From the NCBI GenBank assembly GCA_015060835.1, contig SUXT01000006.1, positions 1-56,739 on the forward strand: a stretch of 56,739 bases of DNA, in the 5' to 3' direction. The notes under the pieces are model-generated. The model ran no database searches and had not been told where the DNA came from. It was given only the letters and a program-made list of their open reading frames with translations. This DNA is from Bacteroidales bacterium. Its GTDB lineage: Bacteria > Bacteroidota > Bacteroidia > Bacteroidales > Bacteroidaceae. This document shows positions 33,301 to 46,506 of this stretch, in pieces; position 1 is the stretch's first letter, and each line of letters starts with the position of its first letter. The translations under genes and the position numbers were made by a program.

Positions 33301-33401
33301 TATGCAAGGAGAATTTTCAAATACAACTCTTCGGTAAACGCATTTAAACTCTTTAATGTGAACTCGATATAAGCCCCCTCTGTCCTTCTGCAATTTATAT
33401 A

Positions 33402-33649
33402 AACTCCTCCTCTATTTAAGAGGAGGTGGATTCAAAAACGAGTTTTTGAAGACGGAGGAGTTCTCTTCTCATCGCATGTTTTTTGCTCTACGATAGATTT
33501 TAGAACTCCCTCCGAACTTTTTTCTTGAAAAAAGTTCTCGTCCCTCTTCAAGAGGGACAGTGTTTTTAGTATGTTTTTTTAAAGAGATTAGCAAAGGTGT
33601 AAAAGCTGAAAGATGTGTCCAAAGATTAGCTTATCCAAAAGGGAGAGTA
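33402..33649 (+). repeat. Folded repeat, modules A and B, tandem unit 1
   Basis: Module A (33402-33462): AACTCCTCC, hairpin CTCCTCT/AGAGGAG, hairpin TTCAAAAAC/GTTTTTGAA (33431-33450), GGAGGAGTT; the outer arms pair, so it can fold as a three-way junction. Module B (33503-33561): AACTCCCTC, hairpin GAACTTTTTT/AAAAAAGTTC, hairpin TCCCTCTT/AAGAGGGA. The unit ends with the TGTGTCCAAAGATTAGCTTA motif and AAAAGGGAGAGT. It is followed by a second near-copy. Confidence 0.8.
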
Positions 33650-33655
33650 TTATTA

Positions 33656-33899
33656 TTCCTCCTCTTGAAGAGGAGGTGGATTTGAAAAACGAAGTTTTTT
33701 GAAGACGGAGGAGTTCTCTTCTCATCGCATGTTTTTTGCACTACGATAGATTTAGAACTCCCTCCGAACTTTTTTCAAGAAAAAAGTTCTCGTCCCTCTT
33801 CAAGAGGGACAGTGTTTTTAGTATGTTTTTAAAAGAGATTAGCAAAGGTGTAAAAGCTGAAAGATGTGTACAAAGATTAGCTTATCCAAAAGGGAGAGT
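33656..33899 (+). repeat. Folded repeat, modules A and B, tandem unit 2
   Basis: Near-identical duplicate of the preceding 248-base unit. The module A inner stem is changed but still pairs (TTTGAAAAAC / GTTTTTTGAA, two G-T wobbles). The module B hairpin loop is CAAG here and CTTG in the first copy. The duplication looks recent. Confidence 0.8.
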
Positions 33900-33940
33900 C
33901 ATTTTTGTTATTTTTCAACGGATTCAATAAAGATTGTATA

Positions 33941-34039
33941 AACTCCTCCTCTTGAAGAGGAGGTGGATTCAAACGCAAAAGCGGTTGAAGACGGAGGAGT
34001 TCAAAACATAAGCAGAATAAATATCTACCGGGCACTTGT
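33941..34039 (+). repeat. Folded repeat, module A with degenerate element end
   Basis: Module A (33941-34001) with inner stem TTCAA-CGC/GCG-TTGAA, followed by AAAACATAAGCAGAATAAAT and CTACCGGGCACTTGT. The last part is a decayed version of the TTACCGGACACTAAT terminal repeat of the larger elements at 41 and 46 kb. Confidence 0.7.
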
Positions 34040-34090
34040 AAAAGAAATCAGGCTGCGCCTCCATTAAAGGAACGCAGCCTGATTTCTTTA
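34040..34090. terminator. Terminator after the BspA-like gene
   Basis: 17-bp perfect stem AAAGAAATCAGGCTGCG (34041-34057) / CGCAGCCTGATTTCTTT (34073-34089) with A/T-rich outer ends, 42 bases past the stop codon of the minus-strand gene. Confidence 0.75.
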
Positions 34091-34131
34091 TATTGCACGA
34101 CACTCGGTGCTGTGTCGATGCAAGCAAACTG

Positions 34132-37100
34132 TTACTTCTTCAGTACCTTCTTGCTTTCTATTCTTCCGCCGGCATATTCGGTAACGACGATGTTGATGCC
34201 CTTCTGAGGCTCGTCGAGTTCCGCACCTGCTTCGTTGAAGTAGCGTACGGATACTATCTCCTCTGCTGTGCCGCCGATGCCGGTGGTACCGTTGACATCT
34301 GCCGACGTGCCGCCGATTGAGGTCTCAACGCCGTCGGTGGTTGCCACGCTTACGTTGTCGACTGAGATTGTGCCGTTGGCATTTTCCACTTCAAGGGTGA
34401 GCAGTGTCTCGCCATCGAAGGTTGCGCTGCTGAGCGAGTAGGCTACTATGCGTACGGTGCCGTTGTCGAGACGGTTCCATGCGATTGTGTGGCTGTCGTC
34501 GCCGGATGTTGCAGCTACGAGGGTTGCTCCTTCGGGCAGCTCTACATCCATCTGCATAGCGGTGTATGCTGCGCTGCCGTTGAGGCTCAGAGACATCAGG
34601 GTGTTGTCTCCGTCGGTGCTTACTTCGCTGCGGATGCTTTCGCCGTTGGCTGCGGCGCGGATGCGTGCGCGGGTATTGTCGCTAACGGCGGGGGTGGCGA
34701 TGATGGCATTGACAATGTTGACTACATCTACGATGCTTATCTCGCCGTCGCCGTTCATGTCGGCTGCGTCGAAGCTGAAGGCAGCTTGTGGCTTGCCGAA
34801 CATCTGGTTGATGGTTGCTACGATGTCGCTTACTGTCACTGTTCCGCTCATGTTGGCGTCACCGGGGATGAATGTAAGGGGACGGATGTTCAGTGTGGCT
34901 TCTGCATCGGTAACTTTAATCTCGCGTGCATCGGGTGTTACCACTCTGATGTTGCTGAGAATGATGGTGCCGGACTCGGTGGTTTCATCTGGTAGGACGT
35001 GTACCTTTAGGGTTACGATGGTGCCGTTACTGTTCTTCAACGGTGCGTTATCCGATGAGAATACTACAACCTTTACGGTGCCGTCTGCCATCTGTGATGC
35101 GGTGATACTGTGGCTGTCGGTTGTGCGGTCGGGGTTGAGTGTGGCAATGATTGTGCCGTCGTCATCTGTTACGGGTGTTATGCCTTCGGGCAGGGTGATG
35201 TCCATCTGCATGGCGGTAACATCGTAGGTGTTGGTCATGGCGATGGGCAGGTCAATCATTGCTCCGAATGTGGTTGTTACATCGTCGAGGGTGATTGTGC
35301 AGTTGTCTGCTTTTTCGAATTCTACTGCGATTGCTATGTTTTCTTCAACCGGGGCGATGGTGTATGTGCCATCATCTTCGACAAAGGTAGTTACATCTGT
35401 GCCGTTGACGATGATTGTCTTCAACTTGTAGTTTTCGGCGGGTGTAATCTGTACTGTTGCCGATGAGCCGTAGTTGACTACGCTGTCGGAGAGTGCCACG
35501 CTGCCCATTGCCGCATCGTTGACTGTGGCGGTCAGTGTGCAGGGTGAGATGATGTTGGTGAACATTGTCCAGCCTGCGGCTTTGTATGCCTTGACGGTTC
35601 CTGCGGGCAGGTGGAGGGCTGCTGTTGCGGATGTATAGGCAAAAGCGGAGGTTCCGAGCGTGGGGGGTACTTCGGCTCTGAGGGTGATGGTTGCGAGTGA
35701 GCGGTTGCCGTTGAAGGCGCTGTTCTTGATAGCCTTAAGACCGCTGCCGAGAGTGACGGTAGCGAGTTTGCCGCAGCCGTCGAAGGTCTTTTCTTCGATG
35801 CTTGTTACTGCGTCGGGGATGGTGATGGCTGCGAGTGATGAGCAACCGAAGAAGGCGCGGTGGCCTATCTTTGCTACGCTGGCGGGGATGCTGATGCTTG
35901 TGAGCTTGGTGCAACTGTTGAAGGCGCGTACACCGATGCTTGTTACGCCATCTTCTATCACTACGTTGTTGATTTGGGTGTTGTAGCTGTTCCACGGTGT
36001 TGCTACGCTACCAAAGTCGGTCATTGCGCCGCTGCCTATGATGGTAAGGGTGCCGTCGCTTGTGAGTCCCCATGCGAGGTTGTCGCCGCAGGTGCCTTCG
36101 GCTACTGCTCCATAGAAGGCGGGAACGCTTTTTCCAAAGTATTCTTTCCATGCGCTGTAGTCGCTGCCGTAGGGGTAGCGGAGGGTGGCGGTGGTGGGGA
36201 TATTTGTAAATGCGTCGCTGCTTTGGAGCGTGGGAGCTGTGATTGCGAGGGAGTTTGTGGTGGCAAGGTTGCTGCAATAGTAGAAGGCTTTTGTGCCGAT
36301 GGTTGTCAGGCTTGCGGGCAGTGTGAGGCTTGTGAGGGCGCGACAGCCGTAGAAGGCGCTGTTCTTGATGGTCTGCACTCCGCTGCCGAGGTTAACTTCT
36401 GCGAGCTTACCGCAGCCGTCGAAGGTCTTTTCTTCAATGCTTGTCACTGCGTCGGGGATGGTGATGGCGGCGAGTGATGAGCAGCCGAAGAAGGCGCGGT
36501 GGCCTATCTTTGCTACGCTGGCGGGAATGCTGATGCTTGTGAGCTTGGTGAGGCTGTTGAAGGCGCGTACACCGATGCTTGTTACACCGTCTTCTATTAC
36601 CACGTTGGTAATTTGGCTGCTATAGCTGCTCCACGGTGTTGCACCGCTGTTATAGTCGGTCATTGCGCCGCTGCCGCTGATGGTGAGGGTGCTGTCTGAC
36701 ATTAGCGTCCATGTGAGGTTGTCGCCGCAGGTGCCTTCGGCTATTGCTTCGTAGATGGGTTCGCTCTTTGCAAAATAAGGCTCCCATGCGCTATAGTCGC
36801 AGCCTGCAGGATAGCGAAGAATAGCGGTTTTAGAGATTCCTGTAAACACACTACCATAATTATCACTAAGAAGCGAGGGTGCAGGCTGTACATATGAAGT
36901 TACAGTATCAAGTTTACTACAATAAGCAAACGCTCTTGGATATATCTTACTAATATTTCCTGATATAGTAATATTTGTTAGGTTGCTGCAAGATTCGAAG
37001 GCATAATCAGCTATAGTTGCACCTTTGATAGTGACGCTTTTGAGACTCGAACAATAATAGAACGCATGACGACCTATATCAAATACGCTTTCGGGGATAT

Positions 37101-37506
37101 TGATATCTGTGAGGCTTCCGCAGCCCTTGAAGGCTTTTTCACATATCATCTTTAAGCCTTTGGGAAGGGTGACGCTTACAACGTTGACATAGTCTTCGAA
37201 TGCTCTTTCTCTTATTTTTGGAATACCAGATGATATAACTATTTTTTTTGTAGCTGCTGTATATTCGCGCCACGGCTGTGAGTCCATTAGGTATTTTGGA
37301 TTATATGCAGGAATTTCAGCTGTACCGCTAAAAGTAAGCACACTGTCGCTTGTTAACTTCCACCAGAGATTATTAATATAGCCACTGGCTACGACCGTTA
37401 TATCGTCCGAAGAAGCTCCGTCTGTTTCTATGCCACGAGCAGAGGCCGACAAACTACACAATAGCACTGCCATTGTTAGCAATAAATTTTTAAAATTTAA
37501 TTTCAT
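34132..37506 (-). CDS. Secreted BspA-like LRR protein with cohesin-like and dockerin-like domains
   Basis: A 1124-residue secreted protein. Signal peptide ends ...SLSASA. Three modules follow (about 35-255, 256-470, 471-660), each with a short beta domain (GTCGDNLTWTLMSDSTLTISGSGAM) and LRR_5 repeats of BspA type (AFxxCxxLxxIxIPxSVxxIGxxAFFGC). Modules 2 and 3 are nearly identical over long stretches, with a DNA period of 639 bases. Then a beta domain (about 660-740), a cohesin-like domain (MQMDITLPEGITPV), a dockerin-like Ca-binding pair (GDANMSGTVTVSDIVATINQ and ADMNGDGEISIVDVVNIVNA, about 890-945), a second cohesin-like domain, and a short tail. BspA proteins mediate adhesion and coaggregation in oral and gut Bacteroidales. 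No cellulosome genes are near; the dockerin is more likely structural. Confidence 0.85.
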   Translation of the reverse strand: MKLNFKNLLLTMAVLLCSLSASARGIETDGASSDDITVVASGYINNLWWKLTSDSVLTFSGTAEIPAYNPKYLMDSQPWREYTAATKKIVISSGIPKIRERAFEDYVNVVSVTLPKGLKMICEKAFKGCGSLTDINIPESVFDIGRHAFYYCSSLKSVTIKGATIADYAFESCSNLTNITISGNISKIYPRAFAYCSKLDTVTSYVQPAPSLLSDNYGSVFTGISKTAILRYPAGCDYSAWEPYFAKSEPIYEAIAEGTCGDNLTWTLMSDSTLTISGSGAMTDYNSGATPWSSYSSQITNVVIEDGVTSIGVRAFNSLTKLTSISIPASVAKIGHRAFFGCSSLAAITIPDAVTSIEEKTFDGCGKLAEVNLGSGVQTIKNSAFYGCRALTSLTLPASLTTIGTKAFYYCSNLATTNSLAITAPTLQSSDAFTNIPTTATLRYPYGSDYSAWKEYFGKSVPAFYGAVAEGTCGDNLAWGLTSDGTLTIIGSGAMTDFGSVATPWNSYNTQINNVVIEDGVTSIGVRAFNSCTKLTSISIPASVAKIGHRAFFGCSSLAAITIPDAVTSIEEKTFDGCGKLATVTLGSGLKAIKNSAFNGNRSLATITLRAEVPPTLGTSAFAYTSATAALHLPAGTVKAYKAAGWTMFTNIISPCTLTATVNDAAMGSVALSDSVVNYGSSATVQITPAENYKLKTIIVNGTDVTTFVEDDGTYTIAPVEENIAIAVEFEKADNCTITLDDVTTTFGAMIDLPIAMTNTYDVTAMQMDITLPEGITPVTDDDGTIIATLNPDRTTDSHSITASQMADGTVKVVVFSSDNAPLKNSNGTIVTLKVHVLPDETTESGTIILSNIRVVTPDAREIKVTDAEATLNIRPLTFIPGDANMSGTVTVSDIVATINQMFGKPQAAFSFDAADMNGDGEISIVDVVNIVNAIIATPAVSDNTRARIRAAANGESIRSEVSTDGDNTLMSLSLNGSAAYTAMQMDVELPEGATLVAATSGDDSHTIAWNRLDNGTVRIVAYSLSSATFDGETLLTLEVENANGTISVDNVSVATTDGVETSIGGTSADVNGTTGIGGTAEEIVSVRYFNEAGAELDEPQKGINIVVTEYAGGRIESKKVLKK

Positions 37507-37827
37507 TTCTTTATATTTTTATAGTTAGTATTCTCATGTTATCAATAGAAGACATTTCTAGAAGCAACATACGCACGAGTTTTTATTCATGCCCACACGC
37601 GATGAGATAGAAATATGGTTAACACTTGTCAATCAAATGTAGCCATACATTTATATAACTTTTCAAGTTATTTTTTTGCAAAGTAATCACAAATAAACTT
37701 ATTTTTCTTGGTACATTTTGGTACATTTTTAACACTTAATATGTTTTTCTGCCCTACTTCATAGGAATACAAACAAATGTTGCATACTTTTGCGTAAAGT
37801 TTATTAAAGCATAAACAGCAAGCACCA
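37507..37827. other. Divergent intergenic region between BspA-like gene and regulator-like gene
   Basis: 321 bases, AT-rich, no gene seen. It contains a minus-strand TACATTTG at 37641-37634 that could be the -7 box of the BspA-like gene and a plus-strand TACTTTTG at 37785-37792 for the next gene. A short direct repeat TTGGTACATTTT lies around 37710-37730. Confidence 0.45.
37785..37792 (+). promoter_or_regulatory. Candidate -7 box for the small regulator-like gene
   Basis: TACTTTTG, fitting TAnnTTTG, 35 bases before the start codon. No clear -33 box. Confidence 0.5.
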
Positions 37828-38400
37828 ATGGAACAAATAGACGAAATTTACAAGAGATTGCAGACTGCGGTTGAAAAGGCTGTGGGCAGGGAAATGCGTA
37901 CGCCACGCGACTTTGATTATCTGTCGGCACGCATATATGATGTTATCGGCGAAAATCTAAGTGCCATGACCTTGAAGAGATTCTGGGGCTATCTGGGCGA
38001 GAAGAACATGAGGCAGTTGCGTCTAAGTACACTAAACTTGCTGGCACGTATGGCGGGATACACCGACTGGGTAACATACTATAAGGAATCGAGCGCGCAA
38101 GGAGACATTGAAAGCGACTTTCTCAGAAACAATTCATTGGTTACAAATTCGTTGCAGAAGGGATGCATGGTGCAACTGATGTGGCACCCCGACCGAGTGG
38201 TTACCATCAGACACGATGGTTACGAGGTATTCACCGTGGTAGAATCGGTGAACAGCAAGTTGAGCGTGGGCGACACCTTCCGCTGCGGACTGATAGTGGA
38301 GGGCGAGGCGCTGTACCTCTCAGGGCTGATACACGAAGGCAGCGAGCCTATGAGTTATGTGTGCGGCAGAGAGGGTGGAGTGAAATTCAGGGTGTTGTAA
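37828..38400 (+). CDS. Small regulator-like protein of unknown function
   Basis: A 190-residue soluble protein. The N-terminal part (about 1-90) is helical, with TPRDFDYLSARIYDVIGENLSAMTLKRFWGYL and RLSTLNLLARMAGYTDWVTYY, a pattern I recognise from Bacteroidota proteins and which resembles a helix-turn-helix or death-domain-like bundle placed before sensor domains. The C-terminal part (about 105-190) is beta-rich (GCMVQLMWHPDRVVTIRHDGYEVFTVVES, YVCGREGGVKFRVL). No catalytic motif is seen. It lies upstream of the receptor-like kinase and shares strand, separated by a repeat and the kinase's own promoter. A role in signalling with the kinase is only suggested by proximity. Confidence 0.6.
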   Translation: MEQIDEIYKRLQTAVEKAVGREMRTPRDFDYLSARIYDVIGENLSAMTLKRFWGYLGEKNMRQLRLSTLNLLARMAGYTDWVTYYKESSAQGDIESDFLRNNSLVTNSLQKGCMVQLMWHPDRVVTIRHDGYEVFTVVESVNSKLSVGDTFRCGLIVEGEALYLSGLIHEGSEPMSYVCGREGGVKFRVL

Positions 38401-38483
38401 GGCTGTTGAAATAGTAGTTATAAGTGTTCGTTCAAAATCCATCCCCAAAAGGGAGAATAATTCATAATCAATAGTTTACAACA

Positions 38484-38630
38484 ATTCATCCTCTTGAGGA
38501 GGAGGTGGATTCAAGAGCGAATAGCGATTGAAGACGGAGGAGTTCTGAATGCAACAGCAATGGCAAGCGGAAAGGCGCGGGATTCGAGAACTCCATCCCC
38601 TTGCGGGGACTCCCTCTTTAACTTTAGAGT
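38484..38630 (+). repeat. Folded repeat, diverged copy of modules A and B
   Basis: Module A with AACTCCTCC arm decayed on the left, inner hairpin only five base pairs (TTCAA / TTGAA, loop GAGCGAATAGCGA), closing GGAGGAGTT. Module B (38589-38630) has AACTCCATC then a CCCC/CGGGG hairpin (CCCCTTGCGGGG) and ACTCCCTCTTTAAC, different in sequence from the other copies but still paired. Confidence 0.7.
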
Positions 38631-38646
38631 ACTACCTTTGTGGAAA

Positions 38647-38669
38647 AATAAAATTTAAACAGCTTCTAA
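38647..38669. repeat. Solo terminal repeat of the GAAGCTGTTT element
   Basis: AATAAAATTTAAACAGCTTC with TAA following, matching the right end of the 196-bp element at 19960-20155. No partner end is close by. Confidence 0.6.
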
Positions 38670-38960
38670 AATCCAAACTACTTCTTATCTTCTATAATCA
38701 CAAAGACTTAGTTCGCTATTCAAAAAGTGAGCAAAAGTTTTGGCTATCGGTATAAAAACTATCAGCACCCATTTATACGCTCGTGGGCAAACAAGAAAGA
38801 AGCCGCATCTTTGCGGCAAACTTACTCATCAAAGTATTCTCTTACGTAAATTGTGGTTTCTGACGTTCGACTTGAACCACATAATCGGTACACTTTAGTA
38901 CATTTCCCAACAAACACGAACTTTTCTCCGCTACGAAGATAAAATTCAAAATATGTTACA

Positions 38961-38968
38961 TAACTTTG
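38961..38968 (+). promoter_or_regulatory. Candidate -7 box for the receptor-like kinase
   Basis: TAACTTTG, fitting TAnnTTTG. It lies 46 bases before the ATG at 39015. A transcript starting about 7 bases after it would leave almost no leader for the alternative GTG start at 38979, which supports the ATG. Confidence 0.5.
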
Positions 38969-39014
38969 CAATTCCAGTGTGCAACACACTACATGTACTA
39001 GGTTTCTTAAAAAA

Positions 39015-40652
39015 ATGAGCTATATATTTAAAGGAGATGCCAATTCTGTGGCTATCGGCGACAGCAATACCCAGGAGGTGATACCCTTGAACAGAAAGGG
39101 TGCTACCTCCAATGTATACATTGTGCGCATTGACGGCAAGGAGTACTTCATGAAACAGTTGCGCCCGGAACTGAAGGATGATTGGCGTTACCGTTCGGCC
39201 TACCGCAAGGAGTATGAGGTGGGACACGGCATCGACAGCAAATATATTGTGAAATACGAGGTTATCGGAGAGAACGCCGAGGGCACATACATACTGATGG
39301 AGCATGTGAACGGCCTGACGATTGACGAGAAATTGGCCTCGGAACCCGAATACTTTGCCAAGGAAAAGAACTTCGAGAAACTGTTCGTTCAGCTGTTGCA
39401 CGGTCTGAAAGCGCTGCACGCGGCAAATGTGGCACACCTCGACCTTAAACCCGAAAATGTGATGCTCACCCAGGTGAACAACGATGTGAAGATTATCGAC
39501 CTGGGATTCTGCTTCGCCGATGCCTACAGCCACACATCAGGCACGAACAAAAGCTTTTCCGCACCCGAACTATGCGATGGCGGCAACAAAGAGGTGGACG
39601 CGCGGACGGATATTTACGCGTTGGGACTATTGATGCGACACATAAAGGAGGCGGCATGCGTGAACGTAACGCCTCGCATAGAGCGCATTATAGAGCGATG
39701 CACGCAGCCTGCCAAGCAGGACAGATATGCGAATGTCGACGAGGTGCTGAGGGCTATGGTTAAAAAGCGCAAATGGGTGCGTTGGACGCTGATAGCCCTT
39801 GTACTTACGCTATTAACGGTAATAGGCACGGAACTATATGAATTTAGTTTGACCGCCGATTATGCCATTCAGAAACAGCGTCTGCAATGGTATCTCACCC
39901 CGTTGGAGTACGACTTTGAGCATGAGAATACGCACTACCGCATATTGTCGGAGGATAGTCTCACTTGCATGGCTGTTGGCGGCAAGCGAGTAGATGGCAT
40001 ATACATACACGACAAGGCACCCTACAAGGGTAAGGAGTACACGACGGTGGCCATTGCCGACAGGGCTTTTGCATGGCGTGACGCGGGGTCGGTGTATGTC
40101 CCTATGGGGGTGAAGGAGATTGGCAACTATGCGTTCGCACATTGCAAGAGGATACAGTCGATGCATCTCCCTGAGAGTGTGGAGAAGATTGGCGAGCACT
40201 GCTGCGAGAGTATGCATACACTGATGAGCCTGCGTCTGTCAAGCAACCTCAAGGAGATTCCCAAGAATGCTTTTGTTGAATGCACATGGCTGAAGAAGGT
40301 GCAGATTCCCGAAGGTGTGGAGAGGCTGGGACTGGATGCCTTTGCCCTCTGTACAAGACTGGAGGAGGTTTCATTGCCATCGACCTTGAAGGCGATAGAC
40401 CGAGGTGTATTCTGGCGATGCAGGAGCCTGAGGTCGTTCACCATCCCTGCTTCGGTGGAGACGATGGGCGAATATATTCTGTTCGAATGTGATAGTCTGA
40501 AGGATGTCTATTGTCCTCATGCAGTGCCGATGCAGATTCCGCCTCTGTACTACAATACTAATGCCACACTGCACGTTCCCCGCGGCTCGGAAGAGCTTTA
40601 CCGCGAGGTGGAATATTGGGCGAAAGCCGCGAAGATTGTAGGGGATATGTAG
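39015..40652 (+). CDS. Receptor-like Ser/Thr kinase with BspA-type LRR ectodomain
   Basis: A 545-residue membrane protein. Residues 20-245 form a Hanks-type kinase: Lys47 in YFMKQLR, catalytic loop HLDLKPEN (141-148, Asp143), metal-binding DLG (162-164, for DFG), APE at 183-185, and TDIYALGLLM. The Gly-rich loop is reduced (RKGATSNVYIV). One membrane helix follows (about 255-273, WTLIALVLTLLTVIGTEL), then a predicted outside domain with LRR_5/BspA-like repeats (about 350-530: AFAHCKRIQSMHLPESVEKIG, AFALCTRLEEVSLPSTL). The kinase is thus inside and the LRR outside, like plant receptor kinases. The stop codon is the TAG at the edge of an interspersed repeat, so the C-terminus may have been trimmed by that insertion. 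The nearby secreted BspA protein has the same repeat type. Confidence 0.85.
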   Translation: MSYIFKGDANSVAIGDSNTQEVIPLNRKGATSNVYIVRIDGKEYFMKQLRPELKDDWRYRSAYRKEYEVGHGIDSKYIVKYEVIGENAEGTYILMEHVNGLTIDEKLASEPEYFAKEKNFEKLFVQLLHGLKALHAANVAHLDLKPENVMLTQVNNDVKIIDLGFCFADAYSHTSGTNKSFSAPELCDGGNKEVDARTDIYALGLLMRHIKEAACVNVTPRIERIIERCTQPAKQDRYANVDEVLRAMVKKRKWVRWTLIALVLTLLTVIGTELYEFSLTADYAIQKQRLQWYLTPLEYDFEHENTHYRILSEDSLTCMAVGGKRVDGIYIHDKAPYKGKEYTTVAIADRAFAWRDAGSVYVPMGVKEIGNYAFAHCKRIQSMHLPESVEKIGEHCCESMHTLMSLRLSSNLKEIPKNAFVECTWLKKVQIPEGVERLGLDAFALCTRLEEVSLPSTLKAIDRGVFWRCRSLRSFTIPASVETMGEYILFECDSLKDVYCPHAVPMQIPPLYYNTNATLHVPRGSEELYREVEYWAKAAKIVGDM

Positions 40653-40775
40653 GAGGTGGATTCAACCGCATCAGCGGTTGAAGACGGAGGAGTTTGAAAC
40701 ATCTGCATGCGTATTCATTCAAACTCCCTCCCCCTTCGGGTACTCCCTCTTATCCAAGAGGGAGAGTATTCATTC
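40650..40775 (+). repeat. Folded repeat overlapping the kinase stop codon
   Basis: Truncated module A (from AGGAGGTGGATTCAA, the left arm missing) with a perfect inner stem TTCAACCGC / GCGGTTGAA (40661-40682) and GGAGGAGTT, then module B (40726-40772) with AACTCCCTC, a CCCC/GGG hairpin (CCCCCTTCGGG) and CTCCCTCTTATCCAAGAGGGAG. The TAG stop of the kinase is the first codon of this repeat. Confidence 0.75.
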
Positions 40776-40961
40776 TCAACAATTTACACAAGTGTCTGCT
40801 ATCCAACTGTCCATCCGCATTTGTAATGCGCTTACATTATCTATCCAATTGAACTGATTTAAGCGACGGATTGCATAAGCTATTGTCCCAAAGGCAAATA
40901 TTTATACCAAAGCTGACAAAGGCTTCATTTTTTTTAAGCGCATCACAGATGCTTATACTCA

Positions 40962-41235
40962 ATTATTGGTGTCCGGTAAACGTGTTTAAGTCGTTTAAAA
41001 TTCAATATTTAAGTAGCTACAAGCCACATTCTTTATGAAGACAAATTTAAGTCAATGATTGGAACTCCCTCGCCCTTTGGGCACTCCCTCTTGAAGAGGG
41101 AGAATGTCGTATATTAGTAATTTTCAATAATTTATATTCCTCCTCTTGAAGAGGAGGTGGATTCAAAAACAGTGTTTTTGAAGACGGAGGAGTTCAAAAC
41201 ACAAGCAGAAGAAATTTTTACCGGACACTAATAAT
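40962..41235 (+). mobile_element. 274-bp MITE-like element with TGTCCGGTAAA terminal repeats
   Basis: Left end ATTATTGGTGTCCGGTAAA (40962-40980), right end TTTTTACCGGACACTAATAA (41215-41234), inverted relative to each other. The interior carries module B (41071-41106, hairpin GCCC/GGGC) and module A (41137-41195, inner stem TTCAAAAAC/GTTTTTGAA). A second copy with the same ends and order lies inverted at 46063-46405. No transposase gene is present, so movement would need an enzyme in trans. Confidence 0.7.
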
Positions 41236-41258
41236 ACTCAATCCTTCGCGTTACAAAC

Positions 41259-41306
41259 TGAAGTGCCCCCCAAAAGTTTTGTGTCTAACTTTTGGGGGGC
41301 ACTTCA
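41259..41306. mobile_element. Head-to-head IS3/IS150-type ends, also a terminator-like hairpin
   Basis: 20-bp perfect inverted repeat TGAAGTGCCCCCCAAAAGTT / AACTTTTGGGGGGCACTTCA separated by 8 bases. The right arm with TTTTGTGTCT before it reads, on the other strand, like the left end of an IS3/IS150-group insertion sequence (TGAA.TG.CCCCAAAAGTTAGACAC). Abutting ends with nothing between suggest an internal-deletion relic. It sits 34 bases past the merR stop and could now serve as its terminator. Confidence 0.55.
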
Positions 41307-41340
41307 ATCAAAGTCAATAGGAGCATAACCTTACACCCGC

Positions 41341-41682
41341 CTATAGTTCCCCTAACGCATCGCGCAGGGCTACAAGTTCTTCCCTGATAGCTCGCAGACG
41401 CTCCACAACAGAGGCTGCAACATCGGCTTCCTCCATCTTTTTGTTATCTTTGAGATAGGCTTTTGCGCCGGCAAGCGTCATTCCTTTATCTTTCACAAGA
41501 TGATAGACGAGCTTAACCATCTTCAGGTCTTTAGGGGTGTATCGGCGCGCGCCGCCGGTGCCTTTGGCAGGGGCTATCTGCTTGAAGACACTCTCCCAAT
41601 AGCGCAGGGTGCTCTCGGTAACACCGACCTCCTGGGCTACCTCGCTGATGGTGTAGTACAATTTTCTGCTGCTTTCGTCCAT
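41341..41682 (-). CDS. MerR-family transcriptional regulator
   Basis: A 113-residue DNA-binding protein. The winged helix-turn-helix is KLYYTISEVAQEVGVTESTLRYWE (about 7-30) followed by KGTGGARRYTPKDLKMVKLVYHLV and a short coiled coil. The C-terminus has no effector domain. I start at MDESSRKLYY, 10 bases after the M23 gene stop; the open frame upstream of it overlaps the M23 coding region and has no family similarity. In many Bacteroidales this gene follows an M23 peptidase gene divergent from alaS, as here. Its regulon is unknown. Confidence 0.88.
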   Translation of the reverse strand: MDESSRKLYYTISEVAQEVGVTESTLRYWESVFKQIAPAKGTGGARRYTPKDLKMVKLVYHLVKDKGMTLAGAKAYLKDNKKMEEADVAASVVERLRAIREELVALRDALGEL

Positions 41683-41692
41683 CGTACGGATG

Positions 41693-42661
41693 TTAATCGA
41701 ATACCTTGCCGTGATTTTCGGCCATACGGAGCAATTCGTCGTAGCCGTCGGCATCAAGATCCATAAAGTAATAGTTGATGGGGTTCACCTTGCGGCCTTT
41801 ATAAACAACCTCGTAGTGAAGGTGGGGACCGGTGCTCTTGCCCGAGTTTCCGCTGTCGGCAATATGCTCGCCGCGTACCACCTTCTGTCCCACTCTTACC
41901 TTTGAACTGTGCAGGTGGGCATAGCGTGTCCTATAACCGTATCCGTGGTCGAGTTCCACTGTGTAGCCGTATCCCGTCTCCCACTTCGAAGAGACAACTA
42001 CAGCATCACCTGTGGCATAGATAGGTGTGCGCATGTCGCACGAGAAGTCCATTCCCGAGTGGAATTTGGTGGTCTTGTAGACTGGGTCGATGCGATAGCC
42101 GTATCCCGATGCTGCCCTTTTGAGGTCTCTGTTGGCAATGGGCTGTATTGCAGGCAGGTGCTTCAGATAGTCCTCCTGCTCCTTGCTCAGCTCTACAATC
42201 TCGTCGAACGACTTTATCTGCAGGTAGAGCTGCTTGGCAAGCATATCCACCTTCTGTGTCGTCTCAACGACAAGGGCGGCATTGTCCATGTTCATGAGCT
42301 CGTCGTAACGGTTGGTGCCTCCGTAGCCCGATGTACGTGCCGCCTCTGCCACCGGCTCGGTGTTCAAGAGCACACGGTAGAGGTTGTCGTCGCGTTGCTG
42401 TATGTTTGCAAGCACCTCCATGGCATCGTCGAGACGGTGCGATAGGATGCGATACTGTGCAAGCAACTTTGAGTTCTCGTCCTGCACCTCCTTGAGAGAG
42501 GGAGTCTGAATGCAAAGGTAGAAAACAAGGAACGACACTCCGCCGAATATCAGATAATAGAGTATGCTGCGCAAAAAGGTAAGGAACTTTTGCGCCACAT
42601 TGGGGTACACTCTGTCGTATGTGCGTGTTTTGGGATTGAATATATAATATACCTTGCGCAT
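41693..42661 (-). CDS. M23-family membrane-anchored endopeptidase
   Basis: Cell-wall peptidase or amidase activator of 322 residues. One N-terminal membrane helix (about 27-51), a coiled-coil region (about 57-95 and 130-165), then a C-terminal LytM/M23 domain. Zinc ligands are His and Asp in FHSGMDFSC and His in the GPHLHYEV motif. All catalytic positions look intact, so it is probably an active DD- or DL-endopeptidase in the periplasm. It is followed by the merR gene (10-base gap) and is divergent from alaS. Confidence 0.9.
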   Translation of the reverse strand: MRKVYYIFNPKTRTYDRVYPNVAQKFLTFLRSILYYLIFGGVSFLVFYLCIQTPSLKEVQDENSKLLAQYRILSHRLDDAMEVLANIQQRDDNLYRVLLNTEPVAEAARTSGYGGTNRYDELMNMDNAALVVETTQKVDMLAKQLYLQIKSFDEIVELSKEQEDYLKHLPAIQPIANRDLKRAASGYGYRIDPVYKTTKFHSGMDFSCDMRTPIYATGDAVVVSSKWETGYGYTVELDHGYGYRTRYAHLHSSKVRVGQKVVRGEHIADSGNSGKSTGPHLHYEVVYKGRKVNPINYYFMDLDADGYDELLRMAENHGKVFD

Positions 42662-42701
42662 TTATGCCTGATAGTATTCCAAAATAGATTTAATGAGTTT
42701 C

Positions 42702-42714
42702 TTAGAAGCTGTTT
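42702..42714. repeat. Solo end of the GAAGCTGTTT element
   Basis: TTAGAAGCTGTTT, matching the left end of the element at 19960; it lies in the 181-base divergent region between the M23 gene and alaS. Short, so moderately supported. Confidence 0.45.
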
Positions 42715-42726
42715 TTCACTCAAACT

Positions 42727-42759
42727 TTTGGCAAAAATAATAAAACTGACGTATCTTTG
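42727..42759 (+). promoter_or_regulatory. Promoter candidate for alaS
   Basis: -7 box TATCTTTG (42752-42759) with TTTG at 42727-42730 as a possible -33 box (21-base spacer, slightly long). The alaS start follows 83 bases downstream. Confidence 0.55.
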
Positions 42760-42842
42760 CAAATTATTGCATAATGTTTCAGTTTTCTTCACTTTTGAGA
42801 GAGAAGAAGAGTATTGGATTTGAATTTTAAAGAATAAAGAAT

Positions 42843-45461
42843 ATGCTTACATCCAAAGAGATAAGAGAATCATTCAAGGAGTTCTTCAAAAGCAAGGAAC
42901 ACCTTATCGTACCTTCGGCACCCATGGTTGTCAAGGACGACCCCACACTTATGTTCACCAACGCAGGCATGAACCAGTTCAAGGATATTATCCTCGGCAA
43001 CCGTCCGGCAAAGAGCAAACGAGTAGCCGACTCACAGAAGTGTCTGCGCGTGAGCGGAAAGCACAACGACCTTGAGGAGGTGGGACACGACACCTATCAC
43101 CACACAATGTTCGAGATGCTCGGCAACTGGTCTTTCGGCGACTACTTCAAGAAGGAGGCAATTTCGTGGGCATGGGAATATTTGGTAGATGTACTTAAAC
43201 TGAATCCCGAAATCCTTTATGCCACCGTATTCGAGGGTAGTGCAGAGGATGGACTGGAGCGCGACAACGAAGCTGCGGGCTATTGGGAGAAATATCTGCC
43301 CAAAGACCATATTATCAACGGCAACAAGAAGGACAACTTCTGGGAGATGGGCGACACAGGTCCCTGCGGTCCCTGCTCTGAAATCCACATCGACCTTCGT
43401 TCAGCCGAAGAGCGTGCACAGATAAGCGGACGCGACCTTGTGAACCACGACCATCCTCAGGTAATAGAGATATGGAACCTCGTGTTCATGCAGTTCAACC
43501 GTAAGGCAGACGGTTCTCTCGAAGGACTCCCTGCAAAGGTTATCGACACAGGTATGGGATTCGAACGTCTCTGCATGGCTTTGCAGGGCAAGCGTTCGAA
43601 CTACGACACCGACATTTTCCAGCCCGTCATCAAGAAAATCAGCGAACTTTCGGGCAAGAACTATGGCGACGATGCACAGGTGGATGTTGCCATGCGCGTA
43701 ATTGCCGATCACATACGCACAATATCATTCTCTATCACCGACGGCCAGCTGCCCTCAAACGCAAAAGCAGGCTACGTGATACGTCGCATCCTGCGCCGCG
43801 CTGTACGATACGCATACACATTCCTGGGACAGAAGCAGGCATTCATGTATAAGCTCATCCCCACACTCATTGAGAACATGGGCGACGCTTATCCCGAACT
43901 TGCACAGCAGCAGGAGCTTGTAACAAAGGTGATGAAAGAGGAGGAGGAGGCATTCCTCCGCACGCTGGAGACCGGTATCCACATGCTCGACAAGATTATT
44001 GCCACAGCAAAAGCCGAGGGCAAGGAGGAGATAAGCGGTGTTGAAGCATTTACACTCTACGATACATTCGGTTTCCCCATCGACCTCACACAGCTTATCC
44101 TCAGAGAGAACGGGCTCACTGTAAATATGGCGCAGTTCGACGAGGAGATGCTCAAACAGAAGACACGTGCCCGCAACGCTGCTGCAGTAGAGAACAGCGA
44201 CTGGGTGAACATTGCCGAGGGCGAGAGCAAATTCGTGGGTTATGACTTCACTGAGTGCAACACACAGATTCTGCGCTACCGCCAGACAAAGCAGAAGAAC
44301 CAGACACTCTATCAGATTGTACTTTCCGAGACACCCTTCTATGCAGAGAGCGGTGGTCAGGTGGGCGACACAGGTCTGCTTGTTTGTGGCGATGAGCGCA
44401 TTGAGGTCATCGACACCAAGAAGGAGAACAACCTGCCCATACACATTACAAAGAAGCTTCCTTCGAACCCCGAAGCCACATTCAGAGCCGAGGTGAACAT
44501 TGCCAAGCGCAATGCATGCGCAGCCAACCACTCGTGTACTCACCTTATCGACCAGGCATTGCGCGAGGTGCTCGGCACACACGTAGAGCAGAAAGGTTCA
44601 CTCGTAACCCCCGAAGGCATCCGTTTCGACTTCTCTCACTTCCAGAAGCTGACAAACGAAGAGATTATAAAGGTTGAAAAGGCTGTAAACGCACGCATAC
44701 GCGCAAACATCCCCTTGACCGAGTACCGCGAAATTCCCATTGGCGAGGCACGCGAGCTTGGCGCAATAGCCCTCTTCGGCGAGAAGTACGGCGACAAGGT
44801 GCGCGTGATAAAATTCGACAACTCTGTTGAATTCTGCGGCGGTACACACGTTGCAGCAACAGGACAGATTGGAATGGTGAAGATTATCTCTGAAAGCTCT
44901 GTAGCTGCCGGTGTGCGTCGTATCGAGGCAATCACAGGCGAGGCTCTCGAAGAGAACATCATCAAGATGCAGGATATGATGGCAGAGATAAAGGCGCTCT
45001 TCAACAATGTACCCAACCTGAAGGCTACCATCGTCAAAGCAATAGCCGAGAACAACGAACTGAAGAAACAGGTCGAGGAGTATGCACGCGAAAAGGCTGT
45101 CAGCACCAAAGAGAAGCTCATGGGCGAGATTAAGGAGCGTAAGGGCATCAGAGTAATCAGCGCCATCCTCCCTTTGCCCGCAGCTACAGTTAAGGATATT
45201 GTATTCATGCTCCGCAGCGAAATGCCCGATAACCTCTTCTGTGTAATCGGCAGCGTAAGCAACGACAAGCCCCAACTTACAATCTCGGCAAGCGGCGACC
45301 TTGTGGAGGCAGGTATCAATGCCGGCAAACTCGTTGGTCAGGCTGCAAAAGAGATGCAGGGTGGCGGTGGCGGTCAGGCACACTTCGCAACTGCCGGCGG
45401 AAAGAATATCGACGGACTGAAGAATGCCATAAGCAAGGTATTTGAACTCGCTGATATTTAA
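42843..45461 (+). CDS. alaS: Alanyl-tRNA synthetase
   Basis: Class II synthetase, 872 residues, full length. Class II motif regions are visible at the N-terminus ([34 protein letters not shown]); the editing domain has the zinc-binding HxxxH in AANHSCTHL and the CxxxH in FCGGTHV; the C-terminal domain has [15 protein letters not shown]. Identity is secure. Confidence 0.98.
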
Positions 45462-45474
45462 TTGGTTGACGGCT

Positions 45475-45960
45475 ATGAACAGCCACAAAGAGAGAATATC
45501 AATAAAATTTCATTGGAACGCTACCGTGTGGATTGTAACCGCATTGGTAGCGGTTCCATTTATTGTCCTATGGATTCTTACCGATGCACACCTACCGGGC
45601 GATTGGCTGAAGTATCTGCTTGCGGGAATCTTTCTTGTGGTCCTTATCATTGTGGCAGGGCTTATGCCACTCAGTTTAGAGGCAGACAAGGCGGGGGTGA
45701 GGTTGCGCAGAGTGTTCGGTTCACTGGTTATTCCTGCAAGCGCCATTGTGGAGTGCAGAAGAATCGACAATTCCTATTTTGAGGGTTCAACAAAGGTATT
45801 CAGCATAGGGAAAATAAAGAAAAGCAGCAACGGCAGGTGGTACACCATGTATGCAACAGAATTCAAGAATCTTGTTCTTGTACAGACTGAGAGGATGGAT
45901 TATATATTCAGCTGCACAAAGCAGGATGAATTTGTGGAGTTTGTCAATGGGCTGAAATAA
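45475..45960 (+). CDS. Membrane protein with bacterial PH-like domain
   Basis: A 161-residue protein with two adjacent membrane helices (about 18-36 and 45-64) and a C-terminal cytoplasmic domain (about 70-160) resembling bacterial PH domains (MPLSLEADKAGVRLRRVFGSLVIPASAIVECRRID, ending KQDEFVEFVNGLK). The start at MNSHKERISI avoids overlap with alaS; an upstream in-frame Met inside alaS is possible. Function unknown; it follows alaS by 13 bases and is probably cotranscribed. Confidence 0.72.
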   Translation: MNSHKERISIKFHWNATVWIVTALVAVPFIVLWILTDAHLPGDWLKYLLAGIFLVVLIIVAGLMPLSLEADKAGVRLRRVFGSLVIPASAIVECRRIDNSYFEGSTKVFSIGKIKKSSNGRWYTMYATEFKNLVLVQTERMDYIFSCTKQDEFVEFVNGLK

Positions 45961-46062
45961 TTTGCGTCATACGCTTAAATATCAGCAAAATAGCGTATCG
46001 TTGCAACTCCTGATCTTCAAGGGAGATCTCTTCAAAAACTATTGCTGTCCGGTAAATTCAAA

Positions 46063-46405
46063 AATATTAGTGTCCGGTTAATTTTTATTCTGCTGATGTT
46101 TTGGAACTCCTCCGTCTTCAAAAACAAGTTTTTGAATCCACCTCCTCTTCAAGAGGAGGAATGTAAATCTTTGAAAATTATTAACATACAACATTCTCCC
46201 TCTTGAAGAGGGACATTGCGTAATAAGCAATGTTTGCGACGACGAAAGCTTTAGCTTTCCAAAGGAGTGCCGAGCTTGCGAGGTTTAGCAGGGCGAGGGA
46301 GTTCCAATCATTGACTTAACTTTGTCTTAATAATGAATTGGGGCTTGTAGCCACTTAAATATTGAATTTTAAACGACTTAAATACGTTTACCGGACACTA
46401 ATAAT
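46063..46405 (-). mobile_element. 343-bp MITE-like element, inverted second copy
   Basis: Ends ATATTAGTGTCCGGTTAA (left) and TTTACCGGACACTAATAAT (right). Read on the minus strand it matches the element at 40962-41235 in order and sequence: AAACG..TTTAAGTCGTTTAAAATTCA, GTGGCTACAAGCC, module B, module A. Its module B hairpin has been expanded by about 70 bases of further inverted repeats (AAAGCT/AGCTTT, CATTGC/GCAATG). An additional element end lies just outside at about 46043-46058. Confidence 0.7.
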
Positions 46406-46453: not shown

Positions 46454-46506
46454 CTTCATTAAACAACAAAGACGACCGATTCGGTCGTCTTTGTTGTTTA
46501 ATGAAG
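46454..46506. terminator. 53-bp near-perfect palindrome after sialidase
   Basis: 26-bp perfect arms (46454-46479 and 46481-46506) around a single central T, with core GACGACCGA/TCGGTCGTC. It lies 10 bases past the sialidase stop and is the likely terminator. Confidence 0.75.

Follow-up and report, generated by a model that had tools for sequence, protein, structure and literature searches.

A two-hairpin, CGTC-type REP-like doublet in a Bacteroidaceae genome, carried in part by IS4-type miniature elements

In Escherichia coli, bacterial interspersed mosaic elements (BIMEs) form arrays of alternating inverted palindromes, which differ in sequence and tag from the repeat described here. CGTC-tagged repetitive extragenic palindromic (REP) elements, which include Neisseria dRS3 and Rickettsia RPE-4/6, have mostly CCA tails, occur as dimers, lack a dedicated transposase and count Bacteroidetes among their hosts (Di Nocera et al. 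2013, PMC3733652); for such short palindromic repeats, the mover is given there as not known. The GTAG/GTGG REPs and their doublets (REPINs) are associated with a Y1 transposase (TnpA-REP, or REP-associated tyrosine transposase [RAYT]), and the corresponding report also describes atypical flanking structures for the Bacteroidetes Y1 subclass 2.6 (PMC6006769). Here, we analyzed an interspersed two-hairpin repeat in a 56,739-nucleotide stretch of DNA (the window; contig C75) from a Bacteroidaceae metagenome-assembled genome (MAG), G000, which comprises 2.64 Mb in 158 contigs and is 86% complete. The repeat is a REP-like doublet of the CGTC type that has gained a further hairpin, and it is in part cargo of IS4-type miniature inverted-repeat transposable elements (MITEs).

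The doublet is made up of two modules. Module A consists, in order, of a first hairpin (H1; CCTCCTCT-loop-AGAGGAGG), the tetranucleotide GTGG, a second hairpin (H2) and GACGGAGGAGTT. Module B is an inverted A-like module, as a covariance model (CM) built from A matched four of the six B copies on the opposite strand (E values of 2.4e-5, 0.00099, 0.045 and 0.063). When A precedes B, pairing is possible between the GGAGGAGTT of the former and the AACTCCCTC of the latter. The initial annotation of the window had listed seven copies of A and six of B, named their stems and proposed a CM as a check. All seven A copies were recovered by the model where they had been placed (weakest E value, 2.1e-11), the stems were read in the sequence as described, and six is a fair count for B. 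This count includes a degenerate copy at approximately 38589 and excludes a AACTCCCTC match at 36247 to 36255, a chance 9-mer inside a BspA-like open reading frame (ORF). In total, AACTCCTCC occurs nine times in the window (0.25 expected) and AACTCCCTC six times (0.26 expected). The second B copy is 98% identical to the first over 80 nucleotides, and the B copy at 46190 to 46303 contains an approximately 70-bp palindromic insert, previously listed as a long compound stem, which was found again in other copies.

Beyond the window, the A core (pattern GGAGGTGG-N6-36-GACGGAGGAGTT) was detected 110 times in G000, and the same pattern read backwards was not detected; 57 distinct copies out of the 110 counted were used for own-genome statistics. 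Altogether, 9 of 81 genomes contained the core, with 47 occurrences in the sister species G021 and 12 in G040. The suggested CM search of relatives returned matches at E ≤ 0.01 in 30 of the 44 genus genomes (own genome included) and in 2 of the 37 genomes outside the genus. As the filters of this search were stricter and no more than 67 candidates were scored per genome, high counts are lower bounds, and the number of A copies within the one genus ranges from 0 to at least 67. From 162 pattern matches with 32 upstream bases, 121 were kept; 41 of the 65 matches in the group 'other' were removed by hand, being by eye without H1 or in coding-looking DNA. Many pattern matches in high-GC genomes look like chance occurrences. 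Among the matches listed, those judged by eye to be true members came from Butyricimonas, from MAGs of Alistipes and Clostridia, and from three Alphaproteobacteria records, while none of the six stretches of viral contigs that fit the pattern was retained as a member. A contig of an Oscillospiraceae MAG (L194, 4587 to 4628) carries an A core with downstream bases of the Bacteroidaceae type and is likely misbinned. The Butyricimonas doublets (flanks in L245 to L263) seem to be embedded in inverted repeats of greater length (GCGTTAGGGACTGTATTCCAGCTC), which may represent another type of carrier.

The module resembles the CGTC-tagged REPs described in PMC3733652 in having CGTC beside a short palindrome, a CCA tail, dimers, intergenic positions and no dedicated transposase, the last point referring to Y1 genes only. 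Read backwards, H2 displays the CGTC tag and the CCA tail. The tag is the GACGG that follows H2 (CCGTC backwards) and the tail is GGTGG (CCACC backwards), both of which are fixed by the search pattern. The tag was also recognized by eye in many CM matches found without the pattern, including variants such as GCTGACTGAGG, and the tail appeared in CM matches as the variants GGTGTC and GGTGCC. Unlike CGTC-tagged REPs, the module has a second conserved hairpin (H1) and pairing arms (GGAGGAGTT/AACTCCCTC), and its stems extend beyond the 8- to 9-bp range: stems of approximately 2 to 13 pairs with loops of mostly 3 to 5 bases by eye were observed, compared with stems of 8 to 9 bp and loops of 4 to 5 bases in these REPs. 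A literature search, largely title-level and open-access, found no published description of the two-hairpin module.

Conservation of the fold holds for H2 and partly for H1. Among 34 distinct H2 sequences, nine of ten pairs had changed on both sides (shuffle mean, 6.6; 15 of 500 shuffles reached nine), and the covariation score was 0.406, compared with 0.098 in shuffled sequences (0 of 500 as high) and at most 0.081 when slid; the foot pair failed in 21 of the 34. The paired changes initially noted in this inner stem of A were thus upheld. Likewise, the H2 cores of the own genome (35 distinct) were 85% Watson-Crick paired, versus 69% with the arms dealt anew (0 of 2,000), and those of Butyricimonas (10 cores) were 90% paired, versus 73% (1 of 2,000). 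No covariation beyond shuffles was detected for H1 in the 34 pattern-selected sequences (0.135 versus 0.126; 61 of 500), which is not surprising, as the search pattern fixes much of the H1 3' arm. In 112 distinct CM-aligned rows, an alignment fitted to the model itself, both-side changes were present in six of eight H1 pairs and in all eight pairs of the main H2 helix. Of the covariation anticipated in both inner stems, that in H2 was therefore found, and that in H1 was seen in the diverged, model-fitted set and not in the pattern-selected one.

Wobble pairs in H2 were confined to one strand. Past the first pair, nine G.T and no A.C pairs occurred among 67 distinct cores, and the main H2 helix contained ten G.T and no A.C pairs among the 112 rows. 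Several of the G.T changes belong to one lineage, and we judge them to represent five to six independent changes. This one-strand wobble fits a fold used as single-stranded DNA (ssDNA) or RNA. In the 112 rows, H1 contained 24 G.T and 9 A.C pairs, a ratio made uninterpretable by the fixed arm.

The complete doublet at 33402 to 33560 folds into H1, H2, a central stem, H2' and H1' (z scores of -5.97 as RNA and -7.42 as ssDNA). The doublet at 40646 to 40768 (z score, -5.34) retains H2, the central stem and H1'; its H1 is lost and the B-side inner hairpin is not formed. A three-way junction had been proposed initially as the fold that is kept. It is indeed the best fold of copy 33402 to 33462 alone (-20.2 kcal/mol; z score, -2.10; 9 of 200 shuffles equally good), but copy 41136 to 41194 alone folds into two hairpins with no such junction. 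Furthermore, the full outer AACTCCTCC/GGAGGAGTT stem and both full hairpins have bases in common and cannot all form at full length. The 5' AACTCCTCC is present in just two of the seven A copies in the window (33402 and 33941), and AACTCC, which is needed for the outer stem, lies within 32 bases upstream in 13 of the 57 own copies. As the outer 5' strand is missing from most copies and the doublet adopts a different fold, we do not consider the three-way junction to be the structure that is kept, but an alternative that some copies may form.

Many module copies lie inside approximately 270-bp MITEs with IS4/DUF4372-type inverted repeats. The composite at 40964 to 41233, bounded by terminal inverted repeats (TIRs), is flanked on either side by the 9-bp ATACTCAAT (40955 to 40963 and 41234 to 41242). 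The TIR core GTGTCCGGTAAA occurs 87 times in the own genome, and the right TIR sequence follows 30 of 74 own and G021 copies. Of the 21 candidate TIR pairs in G000 and G021, some of which overlap by sharing ends, nine had a perfect 9-bp target duplication, compared with 0 of 420 mismatched flank pairs. At a locus on contig C80, the own genome contains a TIR element with ATTTGTAAT on either side, and the site is empty, with a single ATTTGTAAT, on contig L145 (MAG RGIG7201, treated as G021 because the match coordinates agree). As the part shown to have moved lies between TIRs and has both 9-bp duplications and an empty site, we regard these hairpins as passengers of what looks like an IS4-type event. 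Transposition, as raised by the initial annotation, is thus supported in this form and not by the single-strand Y1 route. The window sites in G002 and G025 were also considered as empty sites and were unusable, their neighbouring genes being different.

The composite TIR TATTRGTGTCCGGTAAA differs by one or two bases from those of two insertion sequences (ISs) of the same genus. DUF4372 and DDE_Tnp_1 reading frames lie between the same TIR ends in G069 (split into two frames) and G052, and close TIR variants enclose DUF4372 genes in two same-genus genomes, G003 (TATTGGTGTCCGATAAAA) and G034 (TATTACTGTCCGCTAAA). The IS4-type DUF4372 ISs and their MITEs are therefore like the composite in this TIR and in the 9-bp direct repeat, whereas the composite encodes no transposase and carries hairpin modules. 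A 9-bp direct repeat was seen by eye at the DUF4372 locus L100, and one of 9 to 11 bases, depending on the placement of the ends, at L099. Exact TIRs in the absence of the A core were found in G013 (20) and G016 (15). At L097, L098, L103 and other loci of these two genomes, the same TIR encloses a different palindromic cargo (CCTACTTTTCGTGCCGACGAAAAGTAGG).

Comparison with G021 also revealed changes within doublets. The partner of A has been swapped at the end of A: the alignment to G021 (97% over 1.85 kb) stops at 40694, the end of GGAGGAGTT, and is followed by a different spacer and B. At the C80 locus, the orientation of the A-B doublet is reversed between the two species, the breakpoints falling at H1, and G021 has an additional unit and a different H2; an inversion is the simplest reading, and alternatives exist. 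Between 33.4 and 34.0 kb, the outer flanks are common to both genomes and the inner modules are different. Across the 74 own and G021 copies, H1 loop, H2 type and spacer are mostly linked, with some mixed combinations.

Overall, we consider it probable that two-hairpin REP-type doublets were captured in IS4/DUF4372-type MITEs, are reshuffled at palindromes and persist by recognition of their fold. In a first step, doublets would have been captured between IS4/DUF4372-type TIRs in this lineage and spread in trans as approximately 270-bp MITEs; the TIRs, the 9-bp duplications and the one empty site point to such a step, with a putative transposase of this type moving them. Copies would then exchange modules, invert and duplicate, presumably via recombination at short palindromes, as suggested by the partner swap ending at GGAGGAGTT, the apparent inversion with H1 breakpoints and the 252-bp tandem. 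Finally, the hairpins would persist via recognition of the fold on the GTGG..GACGG strand, for which covariation and strand-biased wobble argue; the candidates for this recognition are a protein, encoded by the host or by a mobile element, and the processing of RNA at the 3' ends of genes.

Several observations weigh against this reading. The CM search of the window missed both the degenerate and the insert-bearing B copies, and the first A copy on its own adopts the three-way junction. A perfect 9-bp duplication was absent from 12 of the 21 candidate TIR pairs (some of them overlapping pairings of the same ends), and paired TGTCCG ends approximately 1.3 to 1.4 kb apart were present at just 5 of the 24 DUF4372 loci read. 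A search for PF14294 (DUF4372) in the TIR-rich G000, G021, G013 and G016, MAGs that are 85 to 86% complete, gave no match. Stem types track subfamily, so that independent covariation events per genome are fewer than copies, and palindrome-templated repair could be another source of paired changes. In addition, G040 contains A modules and no exact TIR, and no such TIR was seen by eye around the Butyricimonas copies, for which no TIR search was made; the MITE route is therefore not the general one.

A doubtful, though not far-fetched, alternative is that the two-hairpin DNA module, which is present in records from Bacteroidota, Clostridia and Alphaproteobacteria, has a strand-specific fold kept by a putative enzyme that would also be responsible for its copying, swapping and flipping. 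If this were true, the doublet would qualify as a minimal mobile element served by a mover of its own, and MITEs would be one vehicle only. Among the loci compared, no free-standing doublet insertion with an empty site was found.

A classical REP/RAYT system is improbable; in this case, the doublets would be REPINs that move in single-stranded form, with a Y1 transposase recognizing the hairpin and the GTGG at its foot. GTGG directly 5' of H2 (part of the search pattern, and agreeing with the foot GT[AG]G) and the inverted doublets fit the REP description in PMC6006769, the wobble in H2 is strand biased, and a Y1 gene is present in one of eight A-bearing genomes of one tested set, the Clostridia MAG G085. 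However, searches for Y1_Tnp gave no match in G000, G021 and G040, which are incomplete MAGs, or in either of two Butyricimonas genomes (19 and 3 copies). Within the genus, 2 of the 14 genomes that had ten or more A matches contained Y1, versus 3 of the 30 others. None of 23 Y1 loci, which are part of all Y1 matches, had an A-type module below an E value of 0.49, including the five (L043, L045, L047, L239 and L318) in genomes with A matches. Unlike in TnpA-REP/RAYT systems, a Y1 gene linked to A modules was thus not found, and a RAYT/Y1 mover was not supported. In another genus, a Y1 gene (L042, 1 to 2600) is flanked by several palindromes with AACTCC...GGAGTT ends, to which the A model gives no match.

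We likewise give little credence to host RNA elements, that is, 3'-untranslated-region hairpins that protect or process mRNA and are selected on the transcript. The wobble bias and the very stable folds would agree with such a role, as would the gene setting of the 57 own copies: the neighbouring ORFs are convergent for 26, co-directional for 11 and divergent for 1, a further 4 copies fall within an ORF and 15 are at an edge, compared with 23 convergent, 26 co-directional and 12 divergent background gaps at the same loci, counts that depend on a crude ORF caller and a background that contains element-bearing gaps. In contrast, the 17 Butyricimonas copies (12 co-directional, 3 convergent and 2 divergent) are distributed like their background (19, 4 and 3, respectively), and the range in copy number within one genus also argues against a host function. 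No Rfam family reached its gathering score in the window, and a known RNA family was rejected, the sub-threshold matches being judged chance. One of these concerns a 53-bp near-perfect palindrome between convergent genes (46454 to 46506) with a weak sub-threshold match to CsrC; this palindrome is probably a terminator.

Least credible is neutral palindrome upkeep, in which template switching or arm-to-arm conversion would maintain pairing of an unselected fold: many stems are perfect, repeated short palindromes are favourable to it and, in an H2 presumed to be orthologous, both arms are different in the two sister species, but the G.T bias on one strand, the persistence of G.A mismatches and the exchange of single base pairs between fixed neighbours in Butyricimonas (CTGC, CAGC and CGGC) speak against it.

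The coordinates of modules and composites in the window are given in Table 1. For the probable decayed composite, the left end CGGTAAACG and the right end CTACCGGGCACT were set against intact TIR ends. An ORF (38979 to 40652) that encodes a protein-kinase domain and BspA-type leucine-rich repeats ends in a TAG stop codon whose final base is also the first base of A copy 5. An inverted repeat, GAAGTGCCCCCCAAAAGTT...AACTTTTGGGGGGCACTTC, is located at 41261 to 41306; we take it to resemble the ends of another insertion sequence.

Table 1. Hairpin modules and TIR composites in the window
Feature	Positions	Strand	Evidence
Probable decayed TIR composite around A1-B1-A2-B2-A3	33328..34036 (ends approximate)	.	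By-eye similarity to intact TIR elements
Module A copy 1 (H1, GTGG, H2, GACGGAGGAGTT); outer AACTCCTCC from 33402	33406..33462	+	CM, E 4.6e-20
Module B copy 1, inverted partner of A1, five-helix doublet 33402-33560	33504..33557	-	Weak CM, E 0.045; doublet fold
Module A copy 2, wobble-paired H2	33658..33715	+	CM, E 6e-19
Module B copy 2, in second copy of ~252-bp tandem unit	33756..33809	-	Weak CM, E 0.063
Module A copy 3	33945..34001	+	CM, E 2.5e-20
Module A copy 4, degenerate H1, no TIR seen nearby	38489..38544	+	CM, E 2.1e-15
Degenerate module B, partner of A4	38589..38629	-	Read from sequence; missed by CM
Module A copy 5, H1 lost; also in sister species with other partner	40652..40694	+	CM match 40646-40694, E 2.1e-11
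Module B, partner of A5	40722..40764	-	CM, E 2.4e-5, model positions 1-56
270-bp MITE-like composite, TIRs TATTGGTGTCCGGTAAA / TTTACCGGACACTAATA	40964..41233	.	TIRs and 9-bp direct repeats
Module B in 270-bp composite	41063..41102	-	CM, E 0.00099
Module A copy 6 in 270-bp composite	41139..41194	+	CM, E 6.5e-21
339-bp TIR composite, 9-bp duplication absent (4/9 bases agree)	46065..46403	.	Flank comparison
Module A copy 7	46105..46159	-	CM, E 6.6e-21
Module B, inner hairpin with ~70-bp palindromic insert (CATTGCG...GAGG)	46190..46303	+	Read from sequence

Three events can be followed at base resolution in the sister-species pair, namely an insertion together with the corresponding empty site, a swap of partners and what looks like an inversion. 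Furthermore, the Butyricimonas genome with 19 copies and no detected Y1 gene is not a MAG, and the question of the mover is therefore testable in culture. The strong covariation in the stems also yields a CM for locating such modules where sequence searches fail. In the genome of this gut bacterium, paired DNA hairpins are widely dotted about, their shape retained while their letters change.

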